Assembly (NCBI RefSeq): GCF_900172325.1
Contig: NZ_FWFR01000003.1
Location: forward strand, 620,001-684,000
Length of the DNA stretch: 64,000 bases
Direction: 5' to 3'
Source: Oceanibacterium hippocampi
Lineage (GTDB): Bacteria; Pseudomonadota; Alphaproteobacteria; Sneathiellales; Sneathiellaceae
A program made the position numbers and the translations under genes. Below the pieces are notes generated by a model. The model searched no databases, was not told the origin of the DNA, and saw nothing but the letters and a program-made list of their open reading frames with translations. How positions within the stretch are numbered: position 1 is the stretch's first letter; each line of letters opens with the position of its first letter. Positions 31,814 to 40,581 of this stretch are shown here, in pieces.

Positions 31814-31900
31814 CCGCATGGCACCGGGACGGCGGAAGGGCCGCCATGCCGGCCATGCAGGCCGATGGGGCAGGACCGCATTGATGCGGAACTTTGTACT

Positions 31901-31929
31901 TTGATTAATGTTAATTTAAGATCTCTACT
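31901..31929 (+). promoter_or_regulatory. Promoter with CtrA-type box upstream of small RNA A
   Basis: TTGATT (31901-31906), 17 bp, TCTACT (31924-31929) form a sigma-70-like promoter. A TTAA-N7-TTAA (31905-31919), the full CtrA recognition pattern, overlaps it between the two boxes. In an alphaproteobacterium this suggests cell-cycle control of the following RNA; chance is possible as the stretch is AT-rich. Confidence 0.4.
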
Positions 31930-31935
31930 GTAATT

Positions 31936-32040
31936 ACGGTTGAGTGCGGCCCCTCCCGGGGTCGCGGGCTGGATCCCGATCCAGCCAGTTTGATGCCTCC
32001 CTGTTGACTTGAGCCGCCGTGATCCGGCGGCTCTTTTTTT
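31936..32040 (+). ncRNA. Small RNA A, suhB/MmgR- or cuckoo-like, with CCUCCC motifs
   Basis: Predicted elements in order: hairpin GCGGCCCC-tccc-GGGGTCGC (31946-31965), hairpin GCTGGATC-cc-GATCCAGC (31968-31985), unpaired GCCTCCCTGT (31995-32004), then gacttG and a Rho-independent terminator GAGCCGCC/GGCGGCTC with seven T (32011-32040). The same hairpin-linker-terminator order with identical GCCTCCCTGT occurs twice at 40 kb. CCUCC is complementary to ribosome-binding sites, so base-pairing to mRNA leaders is the likely role. The 5' end is estimated from the promoter. Confidence 0.65.
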
Positions 32041-37769: not shown

Positions 37770-37900
37770 ACAGGCGCTGGACCCCTGCGGCATTCCCGGA
37801 GCTTGCGGCCAAGCCCTGCACGTAATACATAACGATGGCGCGCCCAGCCGCCGGCGGCCGTTGGCCGCGATCAATCAGCCAGCCCCTGTGGAGCCCGATC

Positions 37901-38884
37901 ATGGCCGCGACCCATCACAGCAAGTTCCTGGTTCTCGGATCCGGCCCGGCCGGTGCGACGGCCGCGATTTACGCCGCGCGCGCGGCCCTGGAGCCGATCA
38001 TGGTGCATGGTCTGCAGCCCGGCGGCCAGCTCACCATCACGACCGATGTCGAGAACTACCCCGGCTTCGCCGACCCGATCCAGGGCCCGTGGCTGATGGA
38101 GCAGATGGAGGCCCAGGCCCGCAATGTCGGAACGCGGATCTTCAACGACGTGATCGTCGATGTCGATCTGACGAAGCGCCCCTTCGTGCTGACCGGCGAT
38201 TCCGGCGACCGTTACACGGCCGACGCGCTCGCCATCGCGACCGGCGCGCAGGCCCGCTGGCTCGGGCTCGACGACGAGCAGAAGTTCCAGGGCTTCGGCG
38301 TTTCCGCCTGCGCCACCTGTGACGGCTTCTTCTTCCGCGGCAAGGAGGTTCTGGTGGTCGGCGGCGGCAATACCGCGGTCGAGGAGGCGCTCTACCTGAC
38401 CCACCACGCGTCGAAGGTGACGATCGTCCATCGCCGTGACAGCTTCCGCGCCGAGAAGATCCTGCAGCAGCGCCTGTTCGCGAACGACAAGATCGAGGTC
38501 GTCTGGAACCATGTTCTGGAAAAGATCCTTGGCGACGAGGACCCGCTCGGCGTGACCGGCGTCCGGCTCCGCAACGTGCAGGACGGCACGATGCAGGAGC
38601 GCAAGCTCGACGGGGTGTTCATCGCCATCGGTCACGCGCCGACGACCGAGATCTTCAAGGGCAAGCTCACCATGGACAGGGAGGGCTACATCGTCACCGC
38701 CCCCGACTCGACGGCAACGAGCGTTCCCGGCGTATTCGCCTGCGGCGATGTCCAGGACAAGATCTTCCGCCAGGCCGTGACCGCCGCCGGGACCGGCTGC
38801 ATGGCCGCCCTGGAAGCGGAGAAGTATCTTGCCGCCCTCGAGCTCAGCGACGAACGCGAAGCCTCGCTCAGCGAAGCGATCTAG
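37901..38884 (+). CDS. trxB: Thioredoxin reductase
   Basis: A 327-residue FAD/NADPH disulfide reductase. FAD site VLGSGPAGATAAIYAARA, redox pair C137-A-T-C140 (SACATCDGFFFRG), NADPH motif VGGGNTAVEEALYLT and C-terminal FAD contact VFACGDVQDKIFRQAVTAAG are all present. It keeps thioredoxin reduced. The ATG at 37901 has GTGGAG upstream. A LysR gene starts 21 bp after it. Confidence 0.96.
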   Translation: MAATHHSKFLVLGSGPAGATAAIYAARAALEPIMVHGLQPGGQLTITTDVENYPGFADPIQGPWLMEQMEAQARNVGTRIFNDVIVDVDLTKRPFVLTGDSGDRYTADALAIATGAQARWLGLDDEQKFQGFGVSACATCDGFFFRGKEVLVVGGGNTAVEEALYLTHHASKVTIVHRRDSFRAEKILQQRLFANDKIEVVWNHVLEKILGDEDPLGVTGVRLRNVQDGTMQERKLDGVFIAIGHAPTTEIFKGKLTMDREGYIVTAPDSTATSVPGVFACGDVQDKIFRQAVTAAGTGCMAALEAEKYLAALELSDEREASLSEAI

Positions 38885-38904: not shown

Positions 38905-39795
38905 ATGGATTGGGACAAGCTGCGCATCTTTCACGCGGTCGCCGAGGCCGGCAGCTTTACCCGGGCCGGCGACATCCTGCATCTCAGCCAGTCGGCTGTG
39001 AGCCGGCAGATCTCGTCGCTCGAGGAGAGCCTGGCGACGAAGCTGTTCCATCGTCATGCCCGCGGCCTGATTCTCACGGAGCAGGGCGAGCTCCTGTTCC
39101 GCACCGCCCATGACGTCTTTGCCAAGCTCGCGACCGTCGAAGGCCAGCTCAAGGACGCCAAGGAGAAGCCCTCCGGCGAACTCAAGGTGACAACGACGGT
39201 CGGGCTCGGCTCGAGCTGGCTGACGCCCCGGATCCGGGAGTTCCTCGAACTCTATCCCGATATCACCGTCAACCTGATCCTTGCCGACCGCGAGCTCGAC
39301 CTGTCGATGCGCGAAGCCGACGTGGCGATCCGGCTGCGCCAGCCGGTCCAGGCCGACCTGATCCAGCGCCGCCTGCTGACCGTGCATTACCGGATCTACG
39401 GCTCGCCCGATTATCTCAAGCGCTACGGCATGCCGATGACCCCGGACGAGATCGGCGGCCACAGGCTGATCGTCTATGGCGAGGAAGCCCCTTCCGTGAT
39501 CTCCGACGTCAACTGGCTGCTCGATGTCGGCACCGACCGGCCCGGCGCCCGGCGCCCGGTCCTCAAGGTCAACAACATTTACGGCCTGCTGCTGGCCGTC
39601 GAGAGCGGACTCGGCATCGGCGCGCTGCCGGACTATATCGTCCACGGCAACAGCAATCTCGTGCAGGTGCTGCCCGATGTGCCGGCACCCAGTTTCGACG
39701 CCTTCTTCGTCTATCCGGAAGAGCTGCGGAACTCGAAGCGGGTCACGATCTTTCGCGATTTCCTCATCCGCAAGGTCTCGGAATGGCGTTTCTGA
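38905..39795 (+). CDS. LysR-family transcriptional regulator
   Basis: A 296-residue LysR protein: N-terminal winged helix (WDKLRIFHAVAEAGSFTRAG, QSAVSRQISSLEESLATKLF) and C-terminal substrate-binding domain (LKVTTTVGLGSSWLTPRIRE). Conserved downstream of trxB in several alphaproteobacteria as I recall. No divergent target gene is adjacent, which is unusual for the family; target and effector are unknown. Confidence 0.92.
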   Translation: MDWDKLRIFHAVAEAGSFTRAGDILHLSQSAVSRQISSLEESLATKLFHRHARGLILTEQGELLFRTAHDVFAKLATVEGQLKDAKEKPSGELKVTTTVGLGSSWLTPRIREFLELYPDITVNLILADRELDLSMREADVAIRLRQPVQADLIQRRLLTVHYRIYGSPDYLKRYGMPMTPDEIGGHRLIVYGEEAPSVISDVNWLLDVGTDRPGARRPVLKVNNIYGLLLAVESGLGIGALPDYIVHGNSNLVQVLPDVPAPSFDAFFVYPEELRNSKRVTIFRDFLIRKVSEWRF

Positions 39796-39980
39796 TGCGC
39801 CGGACGGGTGCCTCCTGCATCTCCGAAAAACGCTGAAACTCAACGGAAATTGCCCTCAGTCGGGCAGCCTGCCCATGTTTTTTGCACAGCAATTTCGATG
39901 GTATATGCGCAAATCGCATAGCTGCGTTGCTCACATGAGTCTGGCCGAATACAGCGCCCATCCCTAAGTATAACGGCATG

Positions 39981-40121
39981 GTTACGGCATCTGCCGGCAA
40001 CCAGATCGTCCGGTCTCCCCGGACGATGGCTTTCGGATCCTCCCATTCTCCGAGAGCCGTTCACGTCGATGACGTGAAGCCTCCCTGTTAGACTTGCCGG
40101 CCTTATAGGCCGGTTTTTTTT
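39981..40121 (+). ncRNA. Small RNA B, CCUCCC-bearing, suhB/MmgR- or cuckoo-like
   Basis: Order: small hairpin (39981-40003), ATCGTCCGG/CCGGACGAT (40005-40027), GGCTtTCGGA/TCCGAgAGCC with loop containing CCTCCC (40028-40058), TTCACGTC-gat-GACGTGAA (40060-40078), unpaired GCCTCCCTGT (40079-40088), gacttg, and terminator CCGGCC-ttata-GGCCGG plus eight T (40097-40121). A -10-like TATAAC sits at 39969-39974. Stem sequences differ from copy A but the linker GCCTCCCTGT is identical and hairpin order is the same. The 5' end is estimated. Confidence 0.7.
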
Positions 40122-40236
40122 GCGCCGCAGCAATTCGCCCACGATCTATACCCATCGGTAGGCATGCGTTTTCTGCATACGGGGTCTGCTCACTTCTTGG
40201 TCGACGGCAGCCCCTCCGGTGACTACATAGAGGGCA

Positions 40237-40389
40237 TCGGATGTTGCGACGCAGCATCCCTTCAGCGCCGGGCTTCGGCCTGGCGCCGGGGTCTACCGCC
40301 CTCCTCCCTGCGGTAGACCTTTCACGTCTCCCTGACGTGAAGCCTCCCTGTATTGACTTGCCGGCCCCTTCGGGGGCCGGCCTTTTTTT
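40237..40389 (+). ncRNA. Small RNA C, tandem relative of B with CCUCCUCCC loop
   Basis: Order: GGATG...CATCC hairpin (40239-40259), GCGCC...GGCGC hairpin (about 40264-40288), GTCTACCG/CGGTAGAC whose 12-nt loop contains CCTCCTCCC (40291-40318), TTCACGTC-tccct-GACGTGAA (40321-40341), unpaired GCCTCCCTGT (40342-40351), gacttg and terminator GCCGGCCCC-ttcg-GGGGCCGGC plus seven T (40360-40389). Same five-hairpin order as B. The CCTCCTCCC loop is the anti-Shine-Dalgarno signature of cuckoo RNAs. A -10-like TACATA is at 40224-40229. 40390-40581 holds nothing recognised. Confidence 0.72.
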
Positions 40390-40581
40390 GCCTCGCAGCA
40401 ATGGCATGAACCGGCACGGAAACCCGAACGCCGGCATGCAACCGTTGCATGGTTCCGCGTCCATCCACCGCCGCGATGGTCGTCTGCAGCAGGATCGATC
40501 CGTCTTTATGTTGCAGCGCAAAGTCGAACTAACGCATCCCCTGACCGGCCACAGAAGGCGTGTCGTGCGGAGGGAGCCGGA

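Follow-up and report, generated by a model that had tools for sequence, protein, structure and literature searches.

Downstream of two genes of known order in other Alphaproteobacteria, a pair of tandem small RNAs, termed B and C here, lies within the analysed window, a stretch of 64,000 nucleotides from Oceanibacterium hippocampi. The elements of the locus are as follows.

37835..38884, + strand: trxB-like thioredoxin reductase gene, ORF of 349 aa, named from its sequence
38905..39795, + strand: LysR-type regulator gene, ortholog of lsrB/vtlR, 296 aa, no cysteine
39977..40121, + strand: small RNA B; box spacing gives the predicted 5' end
40236..40389, + strand: small RNA C, 5' end predicted
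40436..40525, + strand: possible remnant of a third unit, with an ATGC-N7-GCAT box (40436-40450) and the hairpin-1-like TATGTTGCAGCGCAAAG about 72 nt later

The regulator matches PDB 9hh1 over its full length with 374 bits in phmmer, the next best hit reaching 120 bits, and shares 55-74% identity with its best 80 loci in genome contigs. A CCTCCCTGT unit follows the LysR gene within 0.9 kb in about 35 of these 80 loci; most of the non-Rhizobiales among them carry a CCTCCCTGT-terminator unit approximately 130-410 nt downstream, and several Rhizobiales have, at the same place, CTCCTCCC in a loop followed by TGTTCCCCTCTGGAAGG. Two of the Rhizobiales loci pass the ar15 threshold. Four cysteines have been described in Agrobacterium LsrB, which acts as a redox/thiol switch (PMC11975290), and since all four are visible in the 9hh1 chain, this structure is taken to be the Agrobacterium protein. 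The regulator in the window has none of these redox-switch cysteines, so that its input signal may differ, and 51 of 77 LysR orthologs contain no cysteine at all, which means that the thiol switch known from Agrobacterium cannot hold for this regulator in general. The stretch at 40436-40525 has neither an anti-Shine-Dalgarno (anti-SD) site nor a terminator and is probably a decayed third unit; three units are present in several Sneathiella genomes.

Folded alone, B reaches a minimum free energy of -73.6 kcal/mol (z -6.6) and C one of -105.9 kcal/mol (z -6.9), and in neither case does any of the shuffles fold equally well. Both RNAs form five hairpins with a strong terminator at the 3' end (40096-40114 in B, 40360-40381 in C), and they have in common the hairpin order, the stem TTCACGTC/GACGTGAA, the unpaired GCCTCCCTGT and a T-tailed terminator, so the tandem five-hairpin pair with a shared linker described in the original prediction is borne out by the folds. 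The relevant feature begins further upstream than the interval given there, 39981-40389, with an LsrB-type box at 39905-39919. The parts of the two RNAs are listed below.

39979..40003, + strand: B hairpin 1, from the fold
40005..40027, + strand: B hairpin 2, with CTCCC in the loop (40015-40019), from fold and unpaired probability
40028..40058, + strand: B hairpin 3, with anti-SD site 1, TCCTCCC, in the loop (40038-40044), from fold and unpaired probability
40060..40078, + strand: B hairpin 4, stem TTCACGTC/GACGTGAA, from the fold
40079..40088, + strand: B anti-SD site 2, GCCTCCCTGT, single-stranded, with an unpaired probability of 0.91 for CCTCCCTGT
40096..40122, + strand: B terminator, hairpin 5 and T-run
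40239..40259, + strand: C hairpin 1, stem GGATGTTGC/GCAGCATCC, from the fold
40265..40286, + strand: C hairpin 2, from the fold
40289..40320, + strand: C hairpin 3, with anti-SD site 1, CCTCCTCCC, in the loop (40300-40308), from fold and unpaired probability
40321..40341, + strand: C hairpin 4, stem TTCACGTC/GACGTGAA, with CTCCC in the loop (40328-40332), from fold and unpaired probability
40342..40351, + strand: C anti-SD site 2, GCCTCCCTGT, single-stranded, with an unpaired probability of 0.91 for CCTCCCTGT
40360..40389, + strand: C terminator, hairpin 5 and T-run

Each RNA exposes three CTCCC sites instead of the two anti-SD motifs that had been proposed. They are located at 40015-40019 (hairpin 2 loop), 40040-40044 (hairpin 3 loop) and 40081-40085 in B, and at 40304-40308 (hairpin 3 loop), 40328-40332 (hairpin 4 loop) and 40344-40348 in C, with mean unpaired probabilities of 0.80-1.00 over the sites of both RNAs. 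Anti-SD site 2 of B is invariant across 50 family units. Its core CCTCCCTGT occurs four times in the 64-kb window against 0.42 expected, and across the entire 4.8 Mb genome the combination CCTCCCTGT-N0..6-GACTT has just three occurrences, namely in B, in C and at 31996 in a further copy, A. At gathering scores, the Rfam matches in the window are limited to a tRNA and BjrC1505, the latter being copy A (31898-32040, + strand; 54.5 bits), which shares the CCTCCCTGTTGACTT linker, the terminator and a CCTCCC loop with B and C and has no ATGC-N7-GCAT box.

The regions preceding B and C contain sequences resembling the published binding motif of LsrB, GCAT-N3-TG-N3-T (PMC7486931, PMC8844928).

39905..39928, + strand: LsrB-type box of B, ATGC-N7-GCAT-N3-TG-N3-T (ATGCGCAAATCGCATAGCTGCGTT), by sequence match to the published motif
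40164..40178, + strand: LsrB-type box of C, ATGC-N7-GCAT, lacking the TG and keeping the T at the last position, by sequence match

The published motif is exact at 39916-39928, upstream of B. Comparison of loci revealed a wider palindrome, ATGC-N7-GCAT, which overlaps this motif and contains the general LysR pattern T-N11-A; its three exact copies in the window all belong to this locus, one ahead of each RNA and the third following C. Among 100 distinct related units, 72 have the palindrome no more than 230 nt ahead of the linker site, compared with a mean of 1.0 and a maximum of 4 per 100 in shuffled units, and spacers of 3-12 other than 7 occur in at most 6 of the 100. Although not asked for, the published motif's TG (0.47 and 0.79) and T (0.92) also reappear at the positions past the palindrome in these units. 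Of four genomic occurrences of the extended form ATGC-N7-GCAT-N3-TG, only the copy before B looks intergenic by inspection. In Sinorhizobium meliloti, the box of PabcR1 lies at -61 to -49 and is bound by LsrB in gel shifts (PMC8844928). Following this promoter, transcription start sites were set 72 nt after the box start, giving predicted starts near 39977 and 40236, so that the box begins about 72 nt before B and before C, and both starts fall just ahead of hairpin 1. No consensus sigma-70 promoter was found for either RNA, the -35 elements being weak. Control of AbcR by LsrB in S. meliloti was shown in Sm2011 (PMC8844928) and was not seen in strain 1021 (PMC7486931).

This promoter arrangement bears on the question of whether B and C could be RNAs of the cuckoo/CcsR type, in which tandem CCUCC RNAs, a known feature of that group, are processed from a transcript that they share with an RpoH-controlled DUF1127 gene. 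Only 182 nt separate the lysR stop from the predicted start of B, too few for a 71-codon DUF1127 gene of the kind at the CIN1 locus; B and C are each provided with a separate terminator and box, and the upstream genes are trxB-lysR, all of which makes such an origin highly improbable. NfeR1 and cuckoo RNAs also resemble B and C in having several anti-SD hairpin loops and hypervariable stems, but they differ in hairpin number, and B and C possess a site outside a loop and no DUF1127 gene. The NfeR1/ar14 model (RF02344, gathering 58.8 bits) gives 26 bits on C only, below threshold.

Conservation in relatives speaks for selection on structure. Tandem arrays of two or three such units occupy the same place in Sneathiella and its relatives. 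At least four hairpins precede the last site in 76% of 50 Sneathiellaceae units versus 1% of shuffles, and UCCC lies inside a hairpin loop in 98% of these units versus 18% of shuffles. Stems vary, and the loop TCCTCCC and the linker ACCTCCCTGTTAGACTT are constant in most units. Because MAFFT misaligned the variable stems when applied to all 50 family units, covariation was counted on groups of orthologs. In ten orthologs of one copy, 99.1% of cells are paired over 44 pairs in five helices, and double changes are present in 18 of the 44 pairs, covering all five helices, a result reached in 0 of 500 shuffles; the pairing signal is destroyed when partners are slid by 1-3 columns. A second ortholog group shows the same fold with fewer changes. 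The selection on structure that the original prediction had read from B and C alone is thus supported by compensatory changes, and the hairpins, whose absence in relatives had been named in advance as grounds for refutation, are conserved. In some Sneathiella-type arrays the last copy (L011:1392-1548, L012:1389-1543, L016:1389-1544 and L027:1503-1658, minus strand) has diverged in hairpins 1-3 and keeps hairpin 4, the CCTCCCTGT linker and the terminator, which suggests unequal constraint along the RNA.

A different division of the RNA is implied by the SorX/ar8 group, which includes MmgR and suhB. The functional RNA would then be the 3' module alone (hairpin 4, CCUCCCUGU and the terminator, approximately 70-75 nt), cut by RNase E from a longer precursor in which the upstream hairpins form a leader. 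SorX shares with B and C a 3' module composed of a hairpin, CUCCCUGUU, GACUU and a terminator, and its model (RF02784, gathering 46.6 bits) gives 46.0 bits for B and 33.4 bits for C, the match being confined to this module. Two relatives exceed the threshold while B and C fall short, and current Rfam would therefore label the group inconsistently. SorX is itself processed by RNase E from a precursor, and ar8 RNAs are multi-copy and at times adjacent in Alphaproteobacteria. The MmgR/suhB (ar8) RNAs, which share an Rfam clan with ar15, likewise have the order hairpin, CCUCCCU, terminator, but are described with a single anti-SD site and a length of 77 nt, compared with three sites in B and C. 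The suhB model (RF00519, gathering 41 bits), a check proposed at the outset, yields 21.2 and 25.1 bits on the two RNAs, so that neither it nor SorX reaches threshold in the window. Moreover, SorX is a 75-nt product of an ompR-like 3' UTR, whereas the gene upstream of B is lsrB, with B's own box in the gap, and B and C add three conserved hairpins and boxed promoters behind lsrB. The upstream hairpins and CUCCC loops are conserved with compensatory changes, as would be expected of a functional RNA and not of a leader. Processing of B and C to a SorX-like module is therefore considered improbable. Filing under suhB/MmgR, NfeR1, cuckoo or SorX was rejected on score or context, in agreement with the earlier view that B and C are neither cuckoo/CcsR nor suhB/MmgR RNAs.

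The closest parallel, provided by the trxB-lsrB slot and the LsrB box that the original prediction had overlooked, is AbcR (ar15). In A. tumefaciens the gene order is trxB-vtlR-abcR1-abcR2 (PMC7486931), and in S. meliloti abcR1 and abcR2 adjoin lsrB (PMC8844928). AbcR RNAs, like B and C, are tandem sRNAs directly after trxB-lsrB/vtlR, and the LsrB box is at the same distance, being located at abcR1 in the one case and, in the other, exact before B and conserved in relatives. In both, one anti-SD site is exposed in a hairpin loop and another lies in the linker ahead of the terminator, with B and C adding a third, and transporter binding proteins such as LivK, which are targets of AbcR, are candidate targets of B and C. 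AbcR binds Hfq and silences nutrient uptake by base-pairing to ABC-transporter mRNAs at their ribosome-binding sites. By genomic position and LsrB box, B and C thus sit in the AbcR slot, and by analogy they likely work like AbcR. The differences concern architecture and promoters: AbcR has three hairpins in 114-121 nt, whereas B and C have five in about 145-154 nt; the linker site is CCUCCCUGU in B and C and UUCCCCUC in AbcR; and abcR2 of S. meliloti is RpoH1-dependent with a promoter lacking the LTTR motif (PMC8844928), whereas B and C are both boxed. The suggestion that an architecture with more than one anti-SD site might mark a distinct group does not stand, as AbcR1/2 have two sites (PMC8844928, PMC7143759) and NfeR1/ar14 three (PMC7143759). 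Double sites are a known principle, and what is new is the five-hairpin, LsrB-boxed variant outside Rhizobiales.

Similarity of position and action does not settle descent, and an unrelated sRNA may have taken the LsrB-controlled slot outside Rhizobiales, possibly with a different regulon. RF02345 (gathering 40 bits) has no match at B or C, its best score in the genome being 15.4 bits elsewhere. A model of the 3' module built from 40 sequences, R1, scores 19-26 bits at Rhizobiales AbcR positions, where its alignments skip CCUCCCUGU and consist mostly of the terminator; these were therefore not counted as proof of homology. The hairpin number, five against three, also fits separate descent. However, gene order, box, spacing and the succession of loop site, linker site and terminator are all the same, and substrate-binding proteins, including the LivK type, are still among the candidates. 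Separate descent is accordingly regarded as rather unlikely; it overlaps with an AbcR-like role, which concerns mode of action and not ancestry.

R1 matches 151 of 289 alphaproteobacterial genomes, mostly once or twice each. Among the best 30 matches with locus sequence, lsrB lies on the same 3 kb in 22 and the exact box is present in about 20. In several genomes (G121, G299 and G285), two strong 3'-module matches lie 2-12 kb apart, reminiscent of copy A together with B/C. The five-hairpin form has no Rfam name and is widespread in bacteria beyond the group in which AbcR was studied. The open literature consulted, in which ar8 was covered by citation alone, contained no mention of sRNAs linked to lsrB outside Rhizobiales, and some units may already be catalogued as ar8 members. 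As a tentative proposal, one that we hold to be possible and not the leading view, an undescribed sRNA family of an origin distinct from AbcR would fill the LsrB-controlled slot in many non-Rhizobiales Alphaproteobacteria. In Sneathiellaceae, its members would have five hairpins, as many as three anti-SD sites and a 3' module resembling that of ar8/SorX, and would form arrays of two or three copies, each with its own box.

Candidate targets were sought through ACAGGGAG, the complement of CUCCCUGU, which occurs genome-wide at 22 places before an ATG at the distance of a ribosome-binding site; at 21 of these places an ORF of 60 aa or more follows. Six of these 21 ORFs encode substrate-binding proteins from five Pfam groups (Peripla_BP_6, DctP twice, SBP_bac_8, OpuAC and SBP_bac_3), and one encodes an ABC permease. 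With control Shine-Dalgarno variants, binding proteins account for 2 of 13 (ACAAGGAG) and 2 of 9 (AAAGGGAG), one of them recognized by reading and not by Pfam; the share of transporter proteins is similar with these control motifs, so that the ACAGGGAG list is not shown to be specific. ACAGGGAG is kept before the likely start in 10 of 13 Sneathiella orthologs of the Peripla_BP_6 (LivK-type) protein, and ACAGGG(G)AG is retained by the two closest orthologs of DctP. Since AbcR1 of S. meliloti has livK among its validated targets (PMC3712013), these motif occurrences are suggestive of uptake-protein genes, including the LivK type, as targets of B and C.

The structure, position and box of the units are conserved, and accessible sites are predicted for B and C. 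Taken together with the AbcR parallel, the best reading is that B and C are LsrB-activated, AbcR-like RNAs acting in trans on the ribosome-binding sites of uptake genes, which we regard as probable. As paralogous trans-acting sRNAs directly downstream of lsrB, each would have a promoter of its own, controlled through an LsrB/VtlR (LysR-type) box. Their unpaired CU-rich sites, in the hairpin 3 loop, in the linker between hairpin 4 and the terminator and, as a third, in another loop, would base-pair with ribosome-binding sites rich in purines, repressing translation mainly of mRNAs for substrate-binding proteins of ABC and TRAP transporters. Transcription, start sites, LsrB binding, Hfq dependence, repression and targets of B and C are all presumed by analogy. 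As the two RNAs share the 3' site but differ in their loop sites and promoters, their timing of expression and part of their targets may differ.

These results carry the circuit from LsrB/VtlR to sRNA beyond Agrobacterium, Brucella and Sinorhizobium, where it has been studied, into many further Alphaproteobacteria, and offer a precise candidate operator, ATGC-N7-GCAT, preferentially preceded by AG and followed by N3-TG-N3-T. With LysR orthologs that mostly lack cysteine, the input signal of the circuit outside Rhizobiales becomes a testable question. More broadly, the findings suggest that the link between regulator and sRNA may be older, or more constrained, than the sequence of the sRNA itself.
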